Shown here: in pieces, positions 4,294-45,013 of the stretch | Layout of the letters: each line of letters starts with the position of its first letter | How positions within the stretch are numbered: the stretch's first letter is position 1 | Assembly: GCA_944325555.1 (NCBI GenBank) | Contig: CALVAN010000010.1 | Location: forward strand, 1 to 64,000 | Origin: Candidatus Gastranaerophilales bacterium | GTDB lineage: Bacteria > Cyanobacteriota > Vampirovibrionia > Gastranaerophilales > Gastranaerophilaceae | Reading direction: 5' to 3' | Length of the DNA stretch: 64,000 nucleotides | Position numbers and translations under genes: made by a program | Notes under the pieces: model-generated | Databases searched by the model: none | Told to the model about the DNA's origin: nothing | The model's input: the letters and a program-made list of their open reading frames with translations, nothing else

Positions 4294-5911
4294 AAAGTTA
4301 TCCAACCTTATAAGAGCAAGGTTTCCTTACATTTACATTACAACTTATGAAGAAGAAAGAGTTACAAACCTACTGAAAAAAATTGTAAAAGAACCCAAGC
4401 TCGTTAAAGTACCAAGAGATGTTTATATATGGACTCAGACAAACGGTATTGTAAACGACGAAACGGAAAAACCCGTTCCCGGTACAATAACTCCGTCAAA
4501 AGCTCTTGAGTTTGTGGAAAAATGTGATAAAGATGCGATATTTCTTTTTTATGATTTGCATGTAAACTTCGGGGCTAAAAACAGACCCTGCGATTATGAA
4601 CTTGTAAGAAGACTAAGAGATCTGGTCAGTGTATTAAAGACAAGTCAGGTTCGCAAAAATGTTTTTTTCATATCACCTGATTTGATAATTCCCGATACTC
4701 TTCAAAAAGATATCACTATCTGTAATTTCCCTCTGCCTACTTTAAAGGAAATCAGCAACAAATTAAATACAATGATTACACAAAACGTAAAGGTTAAATC
4801 AGATACTCTTACGGAAGAAGACAAGGAAAAACTTTGCAAAGCTGCTTTGGGGCTAACACTGCAGGAAGCAGAAAATGCTTTTGCCCTCGCAATGGTCAAT
4901 GACGGAACAATAAGTATTGACGATCTTAAAATTATTATGGATGAAAAAATGCAGGTTATTAAAAAAACAGGCATTCTGGAGTTTGTAACGACTAATCTTA
5001 ATATTGATGATATAGGCGGTTTGGATAACCTTAAAAGCTGGCTGAAAAAAAGGAACAACTCTTGGGCTGAAAATGCTAAAAAATATTGCATTCCGGCACC
5101 AAAAGGCGTTCTTATTACCGGGGTTCCGGGCTGCGGTAAAAGTTTGACAGCAAAAGCTATGAGCGCAATCTGGCAGCTTCCCTTATTAAGACTTGATTTA
5201 GGCAAAATTTTCAGCGGGCTTGTCGGAAGCTCAGAGGAAAACATGCGCCGAGCTATTGCCACGGCAGAAGCCGTTGCACCTTCTATCCTGTGGGTAGACG
5301 AAATAGAAAAGGGCTTGAGCGGAGTTAACTCCGGCGGTGACAGCGGGGTTACATCAAGAATTTTTGGACAGTTTTTAACCTGGATGCAGGAAAAAGAAGC
5401 CCCCGTATTTGTAATAGCAACCGCCAACAACATCAATAATCTTCCGCCGGAGCTTATGCGAAAGGGAAGGTTTGATGAAATTTTCTTTGTTGATATTCCT
5501 ACATTTAACGAAAGGGTGGAAATTTTCAGACTACACCTTAAAAAAAGATTGAAGGATAAGGATGTAGCAAAGAATATACGGGTAACTGATGAAATTTGCC
5601 GACAACTTGCTTCTCTTACTGAAGGATTTATCGGCGCAGAGATAGAACAGGTTGTTATTTCTGCTCTTTATGAAGCTTTCTTTGAAAAAAGAGCACTCGA
5701 GTTTAAAGATTTGGAAAAAACAATTAAAAACACGGTACCTCTTTCTACCACACAGAGAGAGCAAATTCTGTCACTGAGAGCCTGGGCAAATGTAAGAGCA
5801 GTTGCGGCAACCAAAAAAGAAGATATGACATCTTACAGTAATAATGTGGCAAATGACGATCATCAAAAAGATGTCTCAAAAACCCGTGGCGGTCGCTCAT
5901 TGGACTTTTAA
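4283..5911 (+). CDS. ycf46: Ycf46-type AAA+ ATPase
   Basis: This 542-residue protein has an N-terminal domain of about 230 residues with few motifs, then a classical AAA+ module: Walker A GVPGCGKS (280-287), Walker B SILWVDE (334-340), sensor-1 region ATANN (379-383) and arginine fingers in MRKGRFDE (R393, R396). The full arrangement matches the Ycf46 family of cyanobacteria and red plastids. The ATG at 4283 lies inside the upstream gene and has GGAG 7 nt before it. The acidic C-terminal tail is variable. Ycf46 in cyanobacteria has been linked to carbon or light responses; that role cannot apply here, so an ancestral remodelling function is inferred. Confidence 0.85.
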   Translation: MLVKKLSNLIRARFPYIYITTYEEERVTNLLKKIVKEPKLVKVPRDVYIWTQTNGIVNDETEKPVPGTITPSKALEFVEKCDKDAIFLFYDLHVNFGAKNRPCDYELVRRLRDLVSVLKTSQVRKNVFFISPDLIIPDTLQKDITICNFPLPTLKEISNKLNTMITQNVKVKSDTLTEEDKEKLCKAALGLTLQEAENAFALAMVNDGTISIDDLKIIMDEKMQVIKKTGILEFVTTNLNIDDIGGLDNLKSWLKKRNNSWAENAKKYCIPAPKGVLITGVPGCGKSLTAKAMSAIWQLPLLRLDLGKIFSGLVGSSEENMRRAIATAEAVAPSILWVDEIEKGLSGVNSGGDSGVTSRIFGQFLTWMQEKEAPVFVIATANNINNLPPELMRKGRFDEIFFVDIPTFNERVEIFRLHLKKRLKDKDVAKNIRVTDEICRQLASLTEGFIGAEIEQVVISALYEAFFEKRALEFKDLEKTIKNTVPLSTTQREQILSLRAWANVRAVAATKKEDMTSYSNNVANDDHQKDVSKTRGGRSLDF

Positions 5912-6785: not shown

Positions 6786-8897
6786 TTATATTTTTATCTC
6801 ATAAATCTTAACTTTTTCCTCTGAATTTTTTACCCTAATGGCTCCCATATACTCTGCGGGTATTTTTTCGTCAATGCAGTTAAGCGTGTTTTCTGTAACT
6901 ATAATACTTTTGTTAAATTCAAGACAAATATCTTTTATTCTTTCAACAACATCAACTGTTTCGCCCATGACAGTGAAATCAGACATATTTGATGAACCTA
7001 TCTGCCCGACGAGTGCATCACCGGTATTTATTGCTATTTTTACATCAATGGCATATTTGTTCAGAGATTTTTCTTCAAAAGTTTGTTCGTCGTAATCTTC
7101 AAAATTTATATTGCTTACGCTGGTATTTATTTCGTTAATCTTTTCCTGAATCTCTATTGCCGCCCGCAATGCATTTTCGCTGTCTTTGCGTGAATGTATC
7201 GGGTATCCCCAGTAAACCTGTACGGAATTGCCGACAAATCTGTTTATTGTGCCGTTATATTTGAAAATTATTTTTTCAATAGAATTAAAAATTTTGTTAA
7301 TAAGTTCAACATACTTTTCCGGCGGAAGTTCTTTTGAAATTTGTATGCCGTTGTAAATATTGCACGACATTACCGTAACTTTTTGTACTGTCGATTTAAG
7401 GTTAAGTCTGTGCGGCTTGTTAACGAGCTGTTTTAAAACTTTTTCAGAAACGAGGTTTCCGAAAATACGCTCTATTTTCCTTTTCCTTTTTAGTTCGTGG
7501 TGTGCCTTTAAAGAAAATGCAAGAACAAATATTGTGCAAATCCAGTACAAAGGCTCTGCCATATCAATCAAAAGCCTGAACCTCGGATGAGCAAACATAA
7601 ACACCGCAAACAAAACGTACGTAAGGATTATCAAAATACCGTTAACAAAAGCAAGAGGAAGGTTTGTTGCTATAAGCATAACAATGATTATTGCCATACA
7701 AAATGCAGCAGTAATTATAGCTCCCTTTATCGGTTTAATATGTTTTACAAAGTTTTTTCTGAGTTTGGCCTGCGTGTCTGCATCATTAATGTAGTTGTCT
7801 ATAATGGTTGCTTTTATTTGTGCGTCAGGCATGTCTTTCGCCACTGGGGTGTTGTGTGTTTCCGTTGCAGTTTGTGTTTGTGCTATTATTACAATTTTGT
7901 CTTTAAAAAATTCGAGAGGAATTTTTTGGTTGTCATATTCAAAATAGTTTGTTCCTCTTACCATACTCAAAAGCAGCGCATTGATAGGTATATCCGTATA
8001 GGTGTTAACCTCTTTATGCCAGTTTATCAGTGCTCTACCTTTGTTATCAAGACGTATTGAGTGTTTTGCGCTTTGCAGAACATTGTTTTTTATTATAATT
8101 TCTTCAGTCAGTGGATCAATGCCTTTGTATTTCATCATAGTTGCCAGTGCAACAGAAGGAATATAAAATTCTTTGTTGCCTTTAATCAGTCTGTAAACAG
8201 GCTGCGAATATCTTACATTTGAAGCATTGTTATTTTTATCCGTAACAAGATTTGTCACTGCCATAGTTGTACTGTTTGTAAAAATATCAGGTATCGGCGT
8301 GTGAGAAAAATATGTTATATAAGAATCAAGGCCGTTGTCATATATATGCATGCTCAATGCATCGCTGGATGGTGAATACGGGTTTTCAAAATTATCAAGA
8401 ATTTTGGAGGCATCATATTTTTCACCCTCGCCGACCTGTGTTCTTAAAGCAGTTGCCAACACAATATTTTTGTATGACCCCAGAGTATCGGCCAACTTCA
8501 TATCTGCAGAGGCGTAGTTGCGGGATAAATCCTCGTAGTTTGAAAAATTTAAATCAACAACAAGAACTTTAGGATTCTGTTGTTCAATAAATTTTATAAA
8601 CTTTGCCCAAACGCTTCTTGACCATGGCCATTTTCTAAGGTTAAGTTCCGGTGAGTTTGCTGCTTCATATTGTGTTAAATCGTTTATTGAAACTATTACA
8701 ATATTGTTATCTGCTTGTTTATAGCGTTGTGCATACAAGCCGCCGTCTAATGTCAAACGGCTGCGCATATCAATCAGTTCGCCTTCTAAAACTTCAAAAA
8801 TACCCTTAAAAAATTGTGCAAAAATAAATAACAATATTATTATGACTGCAGTCACAAAGATTTTTAGCTTGTTCACATACTCAACCTTAAAACTCAT
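6786..8897 (-). CDS. CHASE2 membrane protein with degenerate class III cyclase domain
   Basis: The 703-residue protein has an N-terminal membrane segment (about 12-30), a large extracytoplasmic CHASE2 sensory domain to about residue 390, three or so membrane spans (about 395-475), and a C-terminal class III nucleotide cyclase domain (about 510-700). The cyclase domain looks inactive. The first metal aspartate (normally in a motif like FADIRG) is Asn in SCNIYNG, and the second (normally GDAV) is Asn in GNSVQVYWG. The late motif normally DTVNxAxR is ETVDVVERI. I checked both Asn codons on the minus strand (AAT). The start has GAGG five nt upstream. It is probably a sensor that acts by binding rather than by making cAMP. 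Confidence 0.85.
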   Translation of the reverse strand: MSFKVEYVNKLKIFVTAVIIILLFIFAQFFKGIFEVLEGELIDMRSRLTLDGGLYAQRYKQADNNIVIVSINDLTQYEAANSPELNLRKWPWSRSVWAKFIKFIEQQNPKVLVVDLNFSNYEDLSRNYASADMKLADTLGSYKNIVLATALRTQVGEGEKYDASKILDNFENPYSPSSDALSMHIYDNGLDSYITYFSHTPIPDIFTNSTTMAVTNLVTDKNNNASNVRYSQPVYRLIKGNKEFYIPSVALATMMKYKGIDPLTEEIIIKNNVLQSAKHSIRLDNKGRALINWHKEVNTYTDIPINALLLSMVRGTNYFEYDNQKIPLEFFKDKIVIIAQTQTATETHNTPVAKDMPDAQIKATIIDNYINDADTQAKLRKNFVKHIKPIKGAIITAAFCMAIIIVMLIATNLPLAFVNGILIILTYVLFAVFMFAHPRFRLLIDMAEPLYWICTIFVLAFSLKAHHELKRKRKIERIFGNLVSEKVLKQLVNKPHRLNLKSTVQKVTVMSCNIYNGIQISKELPPEKYVELINKIFNSIEKIIFKYNGTINRFVGNSVQVYWGYPIHSRKDSENALRAAIEIQEKINEINTSVSNINFEDYDEQTFEEKSLNKYAIDVKIAINTGDALVGQIGSSNMSDFTVMGETVDVVERIKDICLEFNKSIIVTENTLNCIDEKIPAEYMGAIRVKNSEEKVKIYEIKI

Positions 8898-28580: not shown

Positions 28581-29201
28581 TTAAACAATATCTTTGCAGG
28601 CAAATTGCAAAAAACTGCCCATTAAATTTTCATTCCATACCTTAACCGTCGGCGGAACTTTTAACACTGCGGGGGTAAAATTCCATATGTATTTAATGTT
28701 TGACTGAATCAAAAAATCGGCTACTTGCTGTGCGGATTGTCTTGGAACGGTTAAAATTGCAAGTTCAACACCAAGGCGCTGCACCAGATTAGGCAGTTTG
28801 GATATATGAAAAATCTGTTTGTTGTTAACCTGTATATCTATTTTCTGCGGGTCATTGTCAAACAGCGCCAGAATATTTAAACCGTAGCTGTTAAAGCTGT
28901 CATACTTTGCAAGTGCAAGCCCCAAATGTCCGGAACCTACAATAAAAGCATCTTTGGTTTTTGAAAAACCAAGAGTTTTTTCAATGGAATCTTTTAGGTC
29001 TTTTACCATGTACCCTACACGACATTTGCCGGCGTTATTCAACAGTTTAAAATCTTTACGCACCTGCGAATCGTCAATACCGAGACGCTGCGCAATTTGC
29101 GGGCTTGATATTGTGTCAATTCCGGCTTCAATATATTCCACCATAATACTGTGATAAAGAGTTAATCTGTTTGAAACTTTTTCTGGTATGTTTTTACTCA
29201 T
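28581..29201 (-). CDS. rex: Redox-sensing transcriptional repressor Rex
   Basis: Rex binds NADH or NAD+ and represses fermentation and hydrogenase genes when NADH is low. The 206-residue product has an N-terminal winged-helix domain (about 1-75, with SSPQIAQRLGIDDSQVRKDF), then a Rossmann domain whose dinucleotide loop reads VGSGHLG (about 88-94). The usual loop is GxGxxG with Asn; His takes that place here. The C-terminal swapped helix (ENLMGSFLQFAC) is present. It is divergent from the hydrogenase operon, a natural target. I could not identify a clear Rex operator. Confidence 0.9.
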   Translation of the reverse strand: MSKNIPEKVSNRLTLYHSIMVEYIEAGIDTISSPQIAQRLGIDDSQVRKDFKLLNNAGKCRVGYMVKDLKDSIEKTLGFSKTKDAFIVGSGHLGLALAKYDSFNSYGLNILALFDNDPQKIDIQVNNKQIFHISKLPNLVQRLGVELAILTVPRQSAQQVADFLIQSNIKYIWNFTPAVLKVPPTVKVWNENLMGSFLQFACKDIV

Positions 29202-29272
29202 GGTTTGCTCAACATTTGTACTTTCATCATTAATTAATAAGAATTATATATCAAATAAAGAAAAAAATCACG

Positions 29273-29317
29273 ATTTACTTATCAAATCTGTTCGAGAAAA
29301 ATTCGTGATAAGTAAAT
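29273..29317. promoter_or_regulatory. Inverted repeat upstream of rex
   Basis: ATTTACTTATCA (29273-29284) and TGATAAGTAAAT (29306-29317) are perfect 12-bp arms with a 21-base loop. TCACGA (29268) and TCGTGA (29303) can pair instead. It lies 70-115 bp upstream of rex and could be an operator or leader hairpin. Confidence 0.4.
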
Positions 29318-29396
29318 TGTCGGTTTGGCATACCTTGATGTGTGCACGTAAAAAACGTAATCAATCAGTGCAGCAGGGCGACTTTAGCTGCCGTTA

Positions 29397-29426
29397 ACAT
29401 ATCGTTGCCTGCAGGCAACGATATGT
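29397..29426. repeat. 30-bp perfect palindrome
   Basis: The arm ACATATCGTTGCCTG (29397-29411) is followed directly by its exact reverse complement (29412-29426). It lies in the rex/hydrogenase divergent spacer, which (29202-29680) otherwise shows only repeat-like words such as GTCATTACGAAGCATCAGG and no supported gene. Confidence 0.7.
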
Positions 29427-29680
29427 ACTGTCATTACGAAGCATCAGGCTTTTGAAGTCTTTATCAATCGTAATCTGCCCAATGTCCTTGGGTGTCTTTC
29501 GTTATCTGCAACTTCAAAGCTTGCTTCTCAGTATTAAATAACAAATGATTTATCCGCTTGCCAATTACGATTAATTAACATAAAATAATAATTGTAAGGG
29601 TGAAAAAAATCACTATTTTATCTATTCATAATAAATATTTAGGAATTAATATTCTGCAGACAGTTAATAAGGAAAAAACA

Positions 29681-29941
29681 ATGGAAAAAGAAAAAGAAAA
29701 CACAAAAACTGTTACCATTAAAGTTTGCATGGGCAGTTCATGCTTTGCAAGAGGAAATGCAGCAAACCTCGATTATATCGAAAATTTTGTTAAAGAACAC
29801 GGTCTTGATGCCAAAATTGAAGTTGTTGGCAGCAGATGCGAAAACAACTGTGCGGTTGGTCCGAATGTTATTATTAACGGCGAAAACTGCGAAGCTGCTT
29901 CACCCGTAAGACTGGAAGCATTACTTAAAAAATATTTATAA
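29681..29941 (+). CDS. Thioredoxin-like [2Fe-2S] ferredoxin
   Basis: Starting at the ATG at 29681 (AAGG upstream) the product has 86 residues. It has the four cysteines of the thioredoxin-like ferredoxin fold: C16-x4-C21 and C53-x3-C57, in KVCMGSSCF and GSRCENNC. Such proteins match the small NuoE-like subunits of electron-bifurcating and sensory hydrogenases. It is the first gene of the hydrogenase operon. It is separated from the next by a 144-bp spacer with a strong hairpin at 29955-29984, which may lower or tune expression of the downstream genes. Confidence 0.8.
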   Translation: MEKEKENTKTVTIKVCMGSSCFARGNAANLDYIENFVKEHGLDAKIEVVGSRCENNCAVGPNVIINGENCEAASPVRLEALLKKYL

Positions 29942-29954
29942 TCATTATCTAAAA

Positions 29955-29984
29955 AGCCTGCCTTTAAAACTTTGAAGGCAGGCT
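29955..29984 (+). terminator. Hairpin between first and second hydrogenase-operon genes
   Basis: AGCCTGCCTT and AAGGCAGGCT form a 10-bp stem, preceded by A5. The downstream side is CTCTCTACTTT rather than a clean T run, so this may be a weak terminator, an attenuator or an mRNA-processing or stabilising structure. Confidence 0.5.
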
Positions 29985-30085
29985 CTCTACTTTATCAGAT
30001 AAACATTACAGAATCTTTGTTTTCCGCATTAATCGTGCGAATTTTGTTTTAATCAAGAATTAATAATCATAATAAGGGGTCTTAA

Positions 30086-31834
30086 ATGAACAGCCAGTAT
30101 CCTATCTATACACTCCAGAACGAATGTGTTGACTGCTACAAATGCGTGCGCCAGTGCAGCATGAAGGCTATCCGCATAGAAAACGGACACGCCTCTGTTA
30201 TTCCTGAAAGATGCATTGCCTGCGGTCACTGTGTTCTTGTTTGCCCGTCGGAAGCTAAAAAAATCAGAAACGATATAAACAAAGCACGAGCAGTCTTGAC
30301 GGCAAAAAGCAGAGTTTTTGTTTCTCTTGCGCCAAGCTGGGCAGGATATTGGAACTGTGGCAGCGAAAAACTCATTTCAGCAATTAAAAAACTCGGATTT
30401 GAAGGCGTATCAGAAACTGCACTCGGCGCTCAAGAAGTTTCCATCGAGGTTACAAAACTTCTCTCAAAACGTGACAGCAAAATTCATATCTCAAGCGCCT
30501 GCCCCGCAATCGTGGACTACGTAAGACTCTACATGCCGGAATACACAAAATATATCACCCCCGTAGGCTCTCCGGCTATGACCCACGCAAAACTTCTAAA
30601 ACAAAGATACGGCGATGACATAGGCGTTGTTTTTGTCGGCCCCTGTATTGCAAAGAAAAACGAAGCCGACAGAAACCCGGAACTTATCGATGTTTCTCTT
30701 ACCTTCCACGAGCTTTCACAGTGGCTTGCTCAAGAAAGCATTGAGCCTGAAAATATCGAGCTTGCTCAGGATACAAGGTTTGTGCCTAAAAAAGCATACG
30801 AAGGTGCATACTATCCTATAGAAGGCGGGATGAATAAGACAATAAGACTCTCGGGCTGCGCAAAAGATATTCAGCTGGTCAGCGTAAGCTCTATTCCTGC
30901 CTTTAGAGATTCTCTGGAAAATCTTAACCCCGAAAGTCTTGACAGAACAATATTTATAGAGGCTCTTGCCTGCCCGGGCGGCTGCGCAAACGGCCCCTGC
31001 AAAGACCCGTCAAAACCGGGGGTTATCACTATGTCTGATATTTTGCGTACAGTGAAACTGAGAGATGATATCCCGACAGAACCCGAAGTTGTAGTTGAAA
31101 AAGAGTATCACGAATCACCGCAAAATACTAAAAAATACACACCGGAGGAAATCGCAGAAGCCATGGCAAGAATCGGCAAACACGGCGTTGAAGACGAACT
31201 CAACTGCGGCGGCTGCGGTTATGATACCTGCAGACAACTTGCGGAAGCTCTCTTAAACGGCGACGCCGAGCCATCGATGTGCGTTTCTTATATGAGAAAA
31301 TTAGCTATCAGAAAGGCCAGTGCAATGCTTCGTTCTATGCCGTCGGCAATTGTTATGGCGGATGCTGATTTGAACATACTTGAAACAAACGAGGCTTTTG
31401 TAAGAATGTTTGCTCCTGACCTTATGGAACTGTTTAACGGCAGACCCGAAGGACTGGCAGGCGGTGCATTAGACAGGGTTGTTCCGTTTACCGATTTGTT
31501 TAAGCGTACTTTAAAATCCGGTAAAGATATACACAAGGAACGCTATCCGATAGGCAAAAACCTATATGATATAGCGGTGTTTGAAATCGAGCGCAACAAA
31601 TTCGTAGGTGCGGTTATCACCGACGTTACCCAGACGGAAATGAAGCGTGAACAAATCGCTAAAAAAGCTCATGAGGTTATCGAAAAAAATATTGCAACCG
31701 TACAAAACATTGCCTGCCTGTTAGGCGAGCATATGGTTGATACGGAATTGTTATTAAGCCAGATTGCTCAAGGGTATGAAGACAACGCACCCGAAACCGA
31801 GGACTCTGAAATAACCGAAAACGGAGAAAATTAA
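30086..31834 (+). CDS. PAS-containing sensor-type [FeFe]-hydrogenase-like protein
   Basis: The 582-residue protein has two 4Fe-4S sites (C14-C24 and C43-C53), then a H-cluster domain: L1 SSACPA (C139), L2 GPCIAKKNEA (C187) and L3 ALACPGGC (C296, C300). A further 4Fe-4S module follows (C374, C377, C382, C399) and then a PAS-like domain (about 415-520). In catalytic enzymes L1 has Cys-Cys; here the proton-relay Cys is Ala, as in sensory hydrogenases. The PAS domain and the phosphatase gene next door support a sensing role. AAGGGG lies upstream, and the stop overlaps the next start (TAATG). Confidence 0.85.
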   Translation: MNSQYPIYTLQNECVDCYKCVRQCSMKAIRIENGHASVIPERCIACGHCVLVCPSEAKKIRNDINKARAVLTAKSRVFVSLAPSWAGYWNCGSEKLISAIKKLGFEGVSETALGAQEVSIEVTKLLSKRDSKIHISSACPAIVDYVRLYMPEYTKYITPVGSPAMTHAKLLKQRYGDDIGVVFVGPCIAKKNEADRNPELIDVSLTFHELSQWLAQESIEPENIELAQDTRFVPKKAYEGAYYPIEGGMNKTIRLSGCAKDIQLVSVSSIPAFRDSLENLNPESLDRTIFIEALACPGGCANGPCKDPSKPGVITMSDILRTVKLRDDIPTEPEVVVEKEYHESPQNTKKYTPEEIAEAMARIGKHGVEDELNCGGCGYDTCRQLAEALLNGDAEPSMCVSYMRKLAIRKASAMLRSMPSAIVMADADLNILETNEAFVRMFAPDLMELFNGRPEGLAGGALDRVVPFTDLFKRTLKSGKDIHKERYPIGKNLYDIAVFEIERNKFVGAVITDVTQTEMKREQIAKKAHEVIEKNIATVQNIACLLGEHMVDTELLLSQIAQGYEDNAPETEDSEITENGEN

Positions 31835-33009
31835 TGGCGGAAAAATCTTTCTTTGTTGATATTGACTGCTTTCAGCAGAAAAAACACGGACAAAATGCCT
31901 TTGGCGACTGCTTTAAGTCAAAACGATTTACGGATGAAGGACGCCTTCTCGCCGTGCTGTCAGACGGTCTTGGCAGCGGAATCAAGGCGAATATTCTTGC
32001 CACAATGACCGCAACAATGATTCTTAAATTCATTGAGGACGGTAAGGACATATTAAAGGCAACGGAGGTTATTATGAACTCTCTGCCTGTTTGTCAGGTC
32101 AGAAAAATCAGCTACTCGACCTTCTCCGCTTTTGAATGCTCTGACGAGGGCGAGATAAAAATAGTAGAAGAAGGCAATCCGGATTTTATTCATATAAGAA
32201 GCGGCAGAATAGTTGAGCATACACCGAGGATTGTCACCTCTAAAAAATTTACAAACCGCCATATGCATCTTTATAACTTCAAACTCGAACCCGAGGACAG
32301 ACTCATTTTTTGCTCGGATGGCGTGACACAGGCTGGTATGGGGACTGACGAATACAAACTCGGCTGGCGAAGAGAAGGCTTGATAGAATTTGTGGAAGCT
32401 GAAATTAAACGTGACCCGTCAATTTCCAGCAGACATCTTGCAATGGAAATAGTTAAAGAATCAATCAGAAAAGAACCCGACCATCAGTCCAAAGACGATG
32501 TATCAGCGCTTGTTCTGTACTTTAGACAGCCGAGAAAGCTTCTTATTTTTACAGGCCCGCCCTATAGACAGGATAGAGATGCAGAGTATTCAAAAATCTT
32601 TGACGACTTTGACGGAAGAAAGGCTATCGTAGGCGGAACTACGGCTAACCTTATCGCAAGAGAGCTCGGGCGTGAAATTACCACGGAAAAATATAACAAG
32701 GGAATGCTTCCTGCATGTTCGCATATGGACGGGGTTGACCTGATAACGGAAGGTATTTTGACGCTTACAAAGGTGCTTGAATACTTGAACGAAGGTTATG
32801 ATCGCTGGCCCGATGACGCAGCAGGCAGATTGATAGAACTTTTGCTTGATTCAGACGTCATAAACTTTATGATAGGGTCAAAGCTTAATCAGGCACATTA
32901 TGACCCTGACCTGCCTTTAGAGCTTGAGATTCGTAAAAATGTCGTAAAACAACTGGAAAAAATTTTATCAGGACGTTATATTAAGAAGGTAAACCTCAAG
33001 TTTATCTGA
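31834..33009 (+). CDS. SpoIIE/PP2C-type serine phosphatase with C-terminal extension
   Basis: The first 225 residues are a SpoIIE-type PP2C phosphatase with metal-binding aspartates in AVLSDGLGSG (about 44-50), FCSDGVTQAG (about 155-162) and KDDVSAL (near 219). Such enzymes remove phosphate from Ser or Thr on regulators such as anti-anti-sigma factors. Residues about 230-391 form an extra domain that contains a GGTTANLIARELG segment and that I do not recognise. Its start overlaps the sensor hydrogenase stop by one base, which strongly suggests that hydrogenase and phosphatase form one signalling unit. No anti-sigma partner is in the window. Confidence 0.8.
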   Translation: MAEKSFFVDIDCFQQKKHGQNAFGDCFKSKRFTDEGRLLAVLSDGLGSGIKANILATMTATMILKFIEDGKDILKATEVIMNSLPVCQVRKISYSTFSAFECSDEGEIKIVEEGNPDFIHIRSGRIVEHTPRIVTSKKFTNRHMHLYNFKLEPEDRLIFCSDGVTQAGMGTDEYKLGWRREGLIEFVEAEIKRDPSISSRHLAMEIVKESIRKEPDHQSKDDVSALVLYFRQPRKLLIFTGPPYRQDRDAEYSKIFDDFDGRKAIVGGTTANLIARELGREITTEKYNKGMLPACSHMDGVDLITEGILTLTKVLEYLNEGYDRWPDDAAGRLIELLLDSDVINFMIGSKLNQAHYDPDLPLELEIRKNVVKQLEKILSGRYIKKVNLKFI

Positions 33010-33060
33010 CGGAATTACAAAATTTCAGACACCACCTAAATTTTTTAAAGGGAGAACTAA

Positions 33061-33321
33061 ATGACTGATACAAAAATATTGTTAGAACTATGTTTCGGTA
33101 CAACATGCTTTGTTATGGGAGCATCAAAATTGCAGGAGATTGAATCTCTTATTCCGCCCCAGTATAAAAACAAAGTCGAAGTTAAAGCACATACTTGTCT
33201 TGATTTGTGCAAAAACTCAACATACATGAAAGCTCCTTTTGTAAAACTTGACGGTGAGATAATTTCAGAGGCTACGGTTGAGAAGATACTTAAAGCAATA
33301 GAGAGAAAGATTGATGGATAA
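33061..33321 (+). CDS. Thioredoxin-like [2Fe-2S] ferredoxin, second copy
   Basis: The 86-residue product has C11-x4-C16 in LCFGTTC and C45-x3-C49 in TCLDLC, the ligand pattern of thioredoxin-fold ferredoxins. It is related to the first gene of the operon in length and pattern, but the sequences differ widely. GGGAG precedes the ATG. The next gene starts inside it (eight-base overlap), so it is probably the redox partner or small subunit of the hydrogenase that follows. Confidence 0.8.
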   Translation: MTDTKILLELCFGTTCFVMGASKLQEIESLIPPQYKNKVEVKAHTCLDLCKNSTYMKAPFVKLDGEIISEATVEKILKAIERKIDG

Positions 33322-34780
33322 TAGCAATACTACCCACATAAAGCGTGAGGTTCTTGTCAGACTTATTCATGCTTTTATAAATCAGGAAATGGGCAATATC
33401 AGAGAATTACCGTTTCAAATGCGCCCAAAAAACGGCGAAGCACCTTACAGATGCTGTATTTATAAGGAAAGAGCAATTCTTCGCCAGAGAGCGATTGCAG
33501 GGCTAGGCTTAAGCGTTGAGTCCGATGACGAAATGACCTCGCTCAATACATACGCTCAACAGGCAATGGACAGAAAAGAGCCGGAGAAAGAAATTTTGAC
33601 GGTTGTCGATGCGGCTTGCAAAGGCTGCGTACCGAGCCGTGTTTATGTTACGGAACTGTGCCAGGGCTGCGTTGCAAGACCTTGCGTGTCTACATGTAAA
33701 TTTGGCGCAATACAGATTAAAGACGGCCGCTCAGTAATTGACGGCGAAAAATGCAAAAACTGCGGTATGTGTATGCAGGTTTGCCCATACAGTGCTATCG
33801 TAAAACTTAAAGTTCCCTGCGAAGATGCTTGCCCTGTCGGTGCAATTCACAAAAATGAAATGGGTCATGCCGTAATAGACTTTGACAAGTGCATAAGCTG
33901 CGGTGCTTGCGTTGGCGCTTGCCCGTTCGCTGCAGTACATGAAAAAAGTCAGGTTATAGATATTTTAAAAGAAATGAAAGCCGGCAAAAAGGTTGTGGCT
34001 ATGGTTGCACCTGCAGTTGTCGGACAGCTGCCTGTTTCTGTTAATAAGATTGCTCAAGCTCTTATTGAATCAGGCTTTTCTGAAGTGTTTGAGGTCGCTC
34101 AAGGCGCTGATACCACTGCAAGAACCGAGGCTGATGATTTTAAAGAAAGAATGGAGCGTGGCGACGAGTTTATGACAACATCGTGCTGTGCAGCTTATAA
34201 TGAGCTTGTTGACAAGCATATACCTGAGTTAAAAGCATTCCGTTCTGATACAAGAACACCGATGTATTACACGGCTAAATTTGTTAAAGAACAGTATCCC
34301 GACTGCGTAACGGTGTTTATCGGCCCGTGCGTTGCAAAAAGAAAAGAAGCGCAAAAAGAAGAATACACCGATTACGTCATGAACTTTGAGGAAATGGGTG
34401 CGTTGTTTGTTGCTTTGAATATAGAAGTTGCAAACTGTGAGGATTACCATTTTGCTAACGAAGCTTCAAAAGAAGGCCGCAACTTTGCCGTAACTGGCGG
34501 TGTTGCCGAATCTGTTAAGGTGGCTTTAAAAGACTTCCCGGAACTGTTCCCGACCTGTGTAAACGGTTTGAACACAAAATCAGTAAAAGATCTCAAAAAT
34601 TGGGCTAAAAAAGGACAGTGTCCGGAAGGTAATCTTGTTGAAGTTATGGCATGTGAAGGCGGCTGTGTTGCCGGTTCTGCATGTTTAAACAACAAACGTA
34701 TAACCACCAAGAAAATTCAGGCTTATGCCGGTGAAAGCAAATGCATTAACGATTTGCCCGTGATTGAGCCTAAAAAATAG
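33314..34780 (+). CDS. [FeFe]-hydrogenase, group B-like, with several Fe-S clusters
   Basis: Starting at the ATG at 33314 (a TTG three bases earlier is in frame) the product has 488 residues. The N-terminal 90 residues are not the usual hydrogenase start. Cysteine clusters follow (C102-C128, C147-C157, C193-C203, with extra Cys at 169 and 173). The H-cluster domain has L1 TTSCCAAY (C291, C292), L2 GPCVAKRKEA (C339) and L3 MACEGGCVAG (C447, C451). Unlike the sensor protein upstream, it keeps both L1 cysteines and so is probably catalytic. The maturases HydE, HydF and HydG are not in the window. A perfect 14-bp terminator follows. Confidence 0.85.
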   Translation: MDNSNTTHIKREVLVRLIHAFINQEMGNIRELPFQMRPKNGEAPYRCCIYKERAILRQRAIAGLGLSVESDDEMTSLNTYAQQAMDRKEPEKEILTVVDAACKGCVPSRVYVTELCQGCVARPCVSTCKFGAIQIKDGRSVIDGEKCKNCGMCMQVCPYSAIVKLKVPCEDACPVGAIHKNEMGHAVIDFDKCISCGACVGACPFAAVHEKSQVIDILKEMKAGKKVVAMVAPAVVGQLPVSVNKIAQALIESGFSEVFEVAQGADTTARTEADDFKERMERGDEFMTTSCCAAYNELVDKHIPELKAFRSDTRTPMYYTAKFVKEQYPDCVTVFIGPCVAKRKEAQKEEYTDYVMNFEEMGALFVALNIEVANCEDYHFANEASKEGRNFAVTGGVAESVKVALKDFPELFPTCVNGLNTKSVKDLKNWAKKGQCPEGNLVEVMACEGGCVAGSACLNNKRITTKKIQAYAGESKCINDLPVIEPKK

Positions 34781-43555: not shown

Positions 43556-45013
43556 ATGATAAAAATACTAAAAAGCTCAGTAATACCAAGACTGGCAAGA
43601 GCTGCAGCCAAAGCAAAAGCAAAAGCACAACAAATTCAACAAACGGCAACAAACACACTTGAACGTACTCCGGCTCAAGATACTTTTTCTGCTGCGGCAA
43701 CATCTCCGATAACTAAAAACGAAGCTAAAAAGATGATAACTGCAACGCAGCATCAGACTTTAGTTGATTATGAATTTGTAAAAAAAGAAAAACTGTTTAA
43801 TGACGAAATAATGTTTTTGCTACAGCCAAAAACCACTGCAAGCGGAGCAAAAGTTTTTACACCAAACCAGACAAAAGTAATAAATATGGCTATTAAAAAA
43901 GTCACATTTTATAAAGGAATGGCCAAAAGACTTGAATCTATGGGCAATGATACCATAGGCAGAGTCATAAAAGATATAAAAACCGTTTTCGGCGGAGAAA
44001 AAAACTACGGCAAATACCTGCATGCCCGTAATAAAAACGGGGTGCCGTCTTCTAAGGATTCAATTTCTATATACAACAAAATAATAAAAGAATTTAAAGA
44101 TCAAAAAGTTAATACTGAAATAATGAATATCTTTGCAAAAAGATTGTATCAAAAACCTTATAAACTCCTTGATAAAACAGAAAAAGAGCTTGTTAAACTT
44201 TCAATTTTTGATGGTGATGTAAAATTTGAATCAAGGGATTATAAGGTATTTGAAAAAATATTGACAACCGGTAAAAAAGATTATGATGAGGCTGTTTCTT
44301 GGATAAAAGATTTGATAGGATTAAGAATGATTATTCCATCAAATGCCGATATGTCAGCGGTTGCCGAGTATTTGACAAACGGAATACTCTCCGGGAAAGT
44401 TAATGTTACCAGAGTAAGTAATTATCACTCAAATCACATTTATCCTTATATCAGCCAGGATACGGTAAAGCTATGGAAACAATCGGTTCCCGGTATTGAA
44501 CTTGTCCAATCAAGTGCAATCAGAAAACAAAACGGATATACGACAACCCAGCTTAATATTTTGCATCCTGTTAAAGATAAAAGCGGAAAAGTCAGATATG
44601 TTTTTGTTGAACTTCAAGTAAGAAGTGAGGATCTTAACAAAATAGGTCAGATTGAACACTTGATTTATGATATTCTTGCTAAGAAAAACATCGGCAAAAA
44701 TATACCGGAGCTTGAAAAATACTATGATTCCATAGGTATCGAAAAAGCTGTGCACGAAGTTTTTGGCAATACTCATAAAGAAGCTGCCTACACTGATTAC
44801 GAAAGAGCAATGTACTCATGGATACGACATAATGAAACTCCTGAGGCTAAGGCTCGTTTGTCATATACAAAACCGATTTTGACGGACTTTGGGCTGGGAG
44901 AATATGAACATTTGCTCAGTTTTGAAGCCTTGCAGCAAATTGATGACACTGCCAATATATTAAAAGCAAGATACGGAAAACCCGATTTGAATAAATTTAC
45001 ACCTAAGAAATAA
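43556..45013 (+). CDS. RelA/SpoT-domain protein with long novel N-terminal region
   Basis: The 485-residue product begins with a Lys/Ala-rich, probably unstructured segment (1-55) and a helical region (about 60-240) I do not recognise. Residues 245-375 look like a RelA/SpoT nucleotidyltransferase domain: WIKDLIGLRMII (249-260, with the metal Asp), NGYTTTQLNI (326-335, where the usual GYxSxH His is missing), ELQVRS (352-357) and IEHLIYD (366-372). No hydrolase, TGS or ACT domain is present. Activity might be (p)ppGpp synthesis, a toxic variant, or lost. A small gene starts 18 bases later. It is divergent from lptC. Confidence 0.65.
   Translation: MIKILKSSVIPRLARAAAKAKAKAQQIQQTATNTLERTPAQDTFSAAATSPITKNEAKKMITATQHQTLVDYEFVKKEKLFNDEIMFLLQPKTTASGAKVFTPNQTKVINMAIKKVTFYKGMAKRLESMGNDTIGRVIKDIKTVFGGEKNYGKYLHARNKNGVPSSKDSISIYNKIIKEFKDQKVNTEIMNIFAKRLYQKPYKLLDKTEKELVKLSIFDGDVKFESRDYKVFEKILTTGKKDYDEAVSWIKDLIGLRMIIPSNADMSAVAEYLTNGILSGKVNVTRVSNYHSNHIYPYISQDTVKLWKQSVPGIELVQSSAIRKQNGYTTTQLNILHPVKDKSGKVRYVFVELQVRSEDLNKIGQIEHLIYDILAKKNIGKNIPELEKYYDSIGIEKAVHEVFGNTHKEAAYTDYERAMYSWIRHNETPEAKARLSYTKPILTDFGLGEYEHLLSFEALQQIDDTANILKARYGKPDLNKFTPKK

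Follow-up and report, generated by a model that had tools for sequence, protein, structure and literature searches.

Five forward-strand genes fill positions 29681 to 34780 of the window, the 64,000-nt stretch of DNA analysed here, whose host is a non-photosynthetic relative of cyanobacteria, grouped in one phylum with a genome that has the identical phosphatase of Planktothrix PCC 7821. They encode a thioredoxin (Trx)-like ferredoxin (Trx1), a sensory-type [FeFe]-hydrogenase (HydS), a SpoIIE/PP2C-type phosphatase, a second Trx-like ferredoxin (Trx2) and a group B [FeFe]-hydrogenase, with rex as their divergent neighbour (Table 1). Open reading frame and domain searches of the window recovered every gene where an earlier, sequence-only reading had placed it, including the adjacent rex. 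The start of the phosphatase overlaps HydS, as that reading had noted, through one base common to the HydS stop codon and the phosphatase start codon (TAATG). The start of the group B hydrogenase likewise overlaps Trx2. Both predicted Trx-like ferredoxins keep all four cysteine ligands of the cluster (C-x4-C ... C-x3-C), Trx2 scoring just under the Pfam cut-off. The second hydrogenase, previously described as catalytic-looking, retains the L1 motif TSCC and is now refined to a group B enzyme. Plasmid copies were looked for, and none were found.

Table 1. Features of the operon and its flank (positions of the window)
Feature	Position	Strand	Basis
rex, redox-sensing repressor, divergent neighbour	28581..29201	-	NCBIfam Rex models above cut-off
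Sigma-70-like promoter, TTGCCA-17-TAAAAT	29558..29586	+	10/12 matches; hits in region at chance number
GTGA-N6-TCAC palindrome directly after the -10, possible Rex/CRP-type operator	29600..29613	+	Same-genus conservation
Trx1, Trx-like [2Fe-2S] ferredoxin	29681..29941	+	PF01257, E 5.7e-9, above Pfam cut-off
HydS, sensory-type [FeFe]-hydrogenase	30086..31834	+	Fe_hyd_lg_C, E 3e-45; two Fer4; PF04060
C-terminal output helix of HydS (VIEKNIATVQNIACLLGEHMVDTELLL), local form of AQEIAxLLGETTAETK	31646..31783	+	Comparison of sensors
SpoIIE/PP2C-type phosphatase with extra C-terminal domain	31834..33009	+	Domain match, E 2.3e-13
Phosphatase C-terminal domain (residues 233-391), Rossmann-like	32530..33006	+	Model, pLDDT 92
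Trx2, second Trx-like [2Fe-2S] ferredoxin	33061..33321	+	PF01257, 21.0 bits, below cut-off of 24.8
Group B monomeric [FeFe]-hydrogenase (HfsD-like)	33314..34780	+	TIGR04105, 521.9 bits vs cut-off of 450

HydS is organized into two Fer4 domains, an H-domain (residues 76-304), a Cx2Cx4Cx16C cluster (C374/C377/C382/C399), a PAS domain and a C-terminal helix. The PAS domain is borderline by Pfam (22.3 vs 22.6 bits) and clear in homologues. The H-cluster cysteines C139, C187, C296 and C300 are invariant among 17 sequences. The sensor-type L1 motif attributed earlier to this PAS-bearing protein is borne out: it reads SSACP, in which alanine replaces the proton-transfer Cys299 (CpI numbering), and the positions of M353 and M497 are altered as well (GPCIAKKNE and EALAC). 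Changes at Cys299 and at these methionines are features of sensory enzymes, and H2 reacts with both TmHydS and TamHydS (PMC8163306, PMC10055695). Judged by its sequence, HydS likely senses H2 directly. TamHydS, a group D protein devoid of PAS, has a C-terminal [4Fe-4S] cluster that is not reduced under H2 (PMC13104023), which makes a simple electron relay to PAS doubtful; the relay may be conformational.

Exactly three [FeFe] H-domain proteins are encoded in the genome, namely HydS, the group B enzyme and a group A trimer. This bifurcating trimer is encoded away from the operon (G000:C42). Of the maturation proteins to which the sequence-only reading had pointed, HydG is present (G000:C2:106510-107925, 881.7 bits); at that locus, no HydE or HydF was recognised adjoining hydG.

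The operon is of a kind that already bears a name. HydDB designates [FeFe]-hydrogenase group C3 as 'phosphatase-linked (putative)' (PMC5037454), and the window displays its features: the H-cluster cysteines, the altered Cys299/M353/M497, the C-terminal cluster and PAS, and the adjacent phosphatase. The two have in common a sensory-type H-domain, PAS and a neighbouring Ser/Thr phosphatase, but HydDB gives no mechanism for C3, and its definition covers neither the forms free of an H-domain nor the near-invariant output helix after PAS, which is new here. At the operon level, the counterpart is hfsABCD of Thermoanaerobacterium, where the PAS sensor HfsB, the serine phosphatase HfsC and HfsD lie in one operon (PMC5707799, PMC11837493), HfsD having been assigned to group B (PMC8924675). 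Comparison with HfsB, HfsC and HfsD reveals the same combination of PAS [FeFe] sensor, serine phosphatase and group B hydrogenase, whereas the second Trx-like ferredoxin ahead of the group B gene and the divergent rex set the window apart. The R. albus hydS/phosphatase/hydA operon also cotranscribes a group C sensor and a phosphatase with a hydrogenase (PMC6776011), although that hydrogenase belongs to group A1, not group B, and is accompanied by an alcohol/aldehyde dehydrogenase.

Genetics of the Thermoanaerobacterium unit gives an indication of its logic. Strains deleted for hfsB show more hydrogenase activity, adhE transcript and ethanol, while ethanol is not raised by deleting hfsC, hfsD or the whole hfs operon (PMC5707799). 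These phenotypes are consistent with a sensor that holds the other components in check and, by analogy, HydS probably restrains the output of its own operon. A strain deleted for hfsABCD regains the ethanol phenotype when only hfsD is overexpressed (PMC11837493), which makes the hydrogenase a possible effector in its own right.

The sequence-only reading had supposed that such a set is less known in a cyanobacterial relative. Such sets are no rarity in the lineage: the phosphatase is encoded by 102 of the 146 genomes sampled in the order, and HydDB lists the type as C3 (PMC5037454). The order Trx-HydS-SpoIIE-Trx-HydB is kept in most of 20 loci read, often with rex adjacent, and persists in other genera at 55-60% protein identity, far beyond chance. 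A contig of Halanaerobium (L123) shares it. Loci L031 and L032, from two other families, have a group A HydA after the sensor and phosphatase instead, and another locus (L034) carries a further [FeFe]-hydrogenase downstream and no group B gene. The catalytic partner is thus exchangeable. Apparent sensor-phosphatase fusions of 970 aa in three genomes (G025, G033, G054) were rejected as in-frame neighbours: both loci that were read (L040, L041) have a TAG between the genes.

No part of the sensor is better conserved than the helix that follows PAS. Its fuller consensus is VI..QM..AQEIA.LLGETTAETK, with the form KNIATVQNIACLLGEHMVDTE in the window, and a threonine within it (LLGExxxxT) is invariant. 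Among 29 sensors, the mean pairwise identity of its 20-residue core is 85%, vs 29% for PAS. The same helix ends every sensor type compared, with or without an H-domain. A helix profile (threshold E up to 1e-6) matches 145 of 386 genomes of the phylum, with one copy each, and these are the same 145 that contain a full-length phosphatase; the genome lists were compared by eye, six weak matches to other PP2C proteins (E 5e-6 to 7e-4) were set aside from the phosphatase count, 132 of the 145 come from one family and are not independent, and such co-occurrence is not proof of interaction. Judging from positions, the two genes are unlinked yet both retained in four genomes (G211, G216, G232, G251), which inspection of the sequences confirmed for G211 and G251. 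The latter genome has its Trx and PAS genes after hoxH and a solitary phosphatase gene ~950 kb away.

The phosphatase begins directly at its PP2C domain, with no N-terminal linker. Its acidic metal-site residues D25, D44, D162, D221 and D222 are invariant in the family, and its model (pLDDT 93) matches SpoIIE with a Z of 23.9 and an rmsd of 2.7 over 214 residues, as expected of a PP2C fold. The C-terminal domain bears GPP, GGTT and TEG motifs conserved family-wide; it yielded no Pfam or PDB sequence match and no Foldseek hit with E below 0.001. Its best VIA match is FhcA (6s6y_F; Z 9.8, rmsd 2.7, 113 residues), and the best matches as a whole (FhcA/FwdB domains and complex I 75-kDa subunits) stand only slightly above the usual background. 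The modelled likeness to FhcA does not suffice for a functional assignment.

In RsbU and RsbP, too, a sensor domain is followed by a helix and then by the PP2C phosphatase, and helical linkers between sensor and PPM domain switch the RsbU-type phosphatases (PMC12143880). The window differs by splitting this order over two genes, and its phosphatase lacks the N-terminal linker and carries the Rossmann-like C-terminal domain. Building on the gene content, the intact H-cluster and phosphatase metal ligands, the conserved order and the exact co-occurrence of helix and phosphatase, all of them observed, we consider it rather probable that the operon is a sensory unit of the hfs type and of HydDB group C3, in which HydS signals through the helix to the phosphatase, with an output on hydrogenase and fermentation genes. 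In this model, Trx1 and the Fer4 clusters would feed the HydS H-domain, which would read H2 or the state of reduced ferredoxin. The resulting change would travel through PAS to the AQEIAxLLGE helix, which would act in trans on the separate phosphatase, giving a PAS-helix-PPM arrangement distributed over two genes. The phosphatase would then dephosphorylate a protein substrate, thereby adjusting the expression of hydrogenase and fermentation genes. We infer both the identity of the sensed signal and its effect on phosphatase activity.

Relatives of SpoIIE and RsbU dephosphorylate a STAS anti-anti-sigma factor and so free a sigma factor, and the genome does encode three STAS domains. These belong to the tail of a SulP transporter, a receiver-STAS protein and a 103-aa protein, and the last two have, by eye, no Ser/Thr at the SpoIIAA phospho-site; no clear phospho-acceptor was visible in any of the three. 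No RsbW-like anti-sigma kinase (HATPase_c_2) scored above cut-off anywhere in the genome in a search whose control works; the matches below cut-off lie within larger histidine-kinase-like proteins. The route through anti-sigma or STAS partners suggested by the sequence-only reading thus finds no support, canonical partner switching is rejected for want of a kinase above cut-off, and a classical route of this sort is very improbable here. The main target of the phosphatase might instead lie within the proteins of its own operon, such as the group B hydrogenase or an amino acid of the sensor helix, rather than in a transcription pathway. The invariant threonine of the helix would suit such a target, as would a genome with no other SpoIIE phosphatase, no RsbW-like kinase above cut-off and one odd kinase-like protein. 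We regard this as improbable, given that hfsB deletion alters transcripts of adhE, a gene outside the operon (PMC5707799).

Returning to the proposed signalling from sensor helix to phosphatase, further configurations emerged when public genomes were scanned with the phosphatase as query, which gave at least 557 relatives. Most of the best 80, which were read, show a full HydS of ~560-600 aa upstream of the phosphatase and NuoE-NuoF-HydA or a group B-like hydrogenase downstream. In cyanobacteria, Chloroflexota and some Planctomycetota and Fibrobacterota, the upstream gene encodes only a PAS protein of ~165-190 aa, with no H-domain or iron-sulfur motif. Planktothrix rubescens PCC 7821, for example, has the order HoxF, Hcp, HoxU, HoxY, HoxH, Trx-ferredoxin, PAS, phosphatase, HoxW. 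Eleven of the 145 co-occurrence genomes are photosynthetic and come from four families; HoxH is encoded in all 11, and the phosphatase lies ~1 kb from hoxH in seven. Two bare-PAS loci from Planctomycetota and Fibrobacterota (L053, L079) neighbour NuoE, NuoF and CODH/ACS genes, another (L114) combines bare PAS with an [FeFe] HydABC, and in two deltaproteobacterial contigs (L106, L115) PAS forms the end of a Cache-HAMP-receiver (REC) protein. Bare-PAS forms occupy at least two separate places in the phosphatase tree, which implies repeated exchange of the input. A description of the cassette was not found in the open-licence hox papers covered, including PMC3858816 and PMC2674450.

These arrangements bear directly on the nature of the signal. 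The operon could be a general redox cassette that reports the state of the ferredoxin or thiol pool via the Trx-like ferredoxin, the H-domain being one coupling route and H2 not the ligand. Pairs of PAS-helix and phosphatase without an H-domain in hox loci, beside CODH/ACS genes and on Cache-HAMP-REC proteins argue for it, as do the absence of PF02906 from 11/11 photosynthetic genomes with the phosphatase and the Trx-ferredoxin gene that stays beside the PAS gene even where the phosphatase is elsewhere. HydS, however, keeps all H-cluster cysteines together with the sensory-type active-site changes, pointing to H2 input here, and TmHydS and TamHydS do react with H2 (PMC10055695, PMC8163306). 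On balance, this account is possible but doubtful for the window.

Since the helix and phosphatase also occur without an H-cluster domain, the pair looks, from sequence comparison, like a portable output cassette for which the H-cluster is one of several inputs. The earlier proposal that the sensor read-out is passed to the phosphatase gains from adjacency, the TAATG overlap, the helix co-occurrence (unlinked genomes included) and hfs genetics (PMC5707799); its other half, H2 itself as the signal, is no more than a proposal, since the same pair also occurs with no H-cluster domain. With moderate confidence, we propose that PAS-helix, Trx-like ferredoxin and the SpoIIE phosphatase with its C-terminal domain form a portable redox output cassette, in which the helix would dock onto and switch the phosphatase and the inputs would be swapped between lineages (H-cluster hydrogenase, bare PAS by [NiFe]-hox or CODH/ACS, membrane Cache-HAMP-REC). 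For putative H2-sensing [FeFe]-hydrogenases, recent studies speak against the C-terminal FeS cluster as the relay of the signal. The comparison narrows the candidate output to a single short helix and a single family of phosphatases. If true, the cassette would supply the missing output step of the sensory [FeFe]-hydrogenases as well as an unrecognised hox regulator, and photosynthetic cyanobacteria with the same pair and no H-cluster are where genetics could test it.

Upstream of Trx1, no good site for a Rex operator of the form TTGTTAANNNNTTAACAA or TTGTGAANNNNTTCACAA was found in the window, and the link of Rex to the operon is weak. In several other genera, rex adjoins or sits within the operon at the loci read. 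The GTGA-N6-TCAC palindrome, not significant in the window alone, is kept or nearly kept in eight same-genus genomes, and the promoter hexamers are conserved across genomes of the genus.

Among the loci found by scanning public genomes for relatives of the phosphatase, the cassette of Trx-like ferredoxin, PAS protein and SpoIIE/PP2C-type phosphatase occurs in several settings. In one Pirellulales contig (L053) and one Fibrobacterota contig (L079) it lacks the [FeFe] hydrogenase domain, and the genes that come after it encode NuoE, NuoF and CODH/ACS. In Planktothrix rubescens PCC 7821 (L103), it is flanked by hoxH and hoxW, with hcp placed between hoxF and hoxU. In L106 and L115, the phosphatase adjoins a Cache-HAMP-receiver-PAS protein that ends in the AQEIAGLLGETTAETK helix, as in the cassette sensors.

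Within the window, Trx1 and HydS are separated by 145 bases, and this spacer contains a 13-pair hairpin that lacks a strong T-run and could attenuate the transcript. The rex-Trx1 gap holds a 30-base palindrome without mismatches, along with other inverted repeats; in genomes of the same genus its length varies from roughly 0.2 kb to more than 1 kb.

Elsewhere in the genome, a short frame shares 46% identity with the C-terminal 37 residues of the phosphatase and is possibly a remnant copy; it is also present in three other genomes. The sole Pkinase match in the genome is a protein of 505 aa that carries the kinase motifs HxDLxxxN and DFG. Two further signalling proteins are encoded in the window.

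Coordinates of cassette loci, non-coding elements and other signalling genes
Sequence	Position	Feature
L053	5690-13298	cassette to CODH/ACS genes
L079	5694-11873	cassette to CODH/ACS genes
L103	154-7984	cassette in hox locus
L106	4102-6492	Cache-HAMP-receiver-PAS protein beside phosphatase
L115	4192-6492	Cache-HAMP-receiver-PAS protein beside phosphatase
Window	29270-29320	inverted repeats
Window	29397-29426	palindrome
Window	29955-29984	hairpin
L051 (G000:C20)	5663-5773	phosphatase-end-like frame
L142	185-1702	Pkinase match
Window	6786-8897	CHASE2-adenylate/guanylate cyclase
Window	43556-45013	protein with RelA/SpoT region
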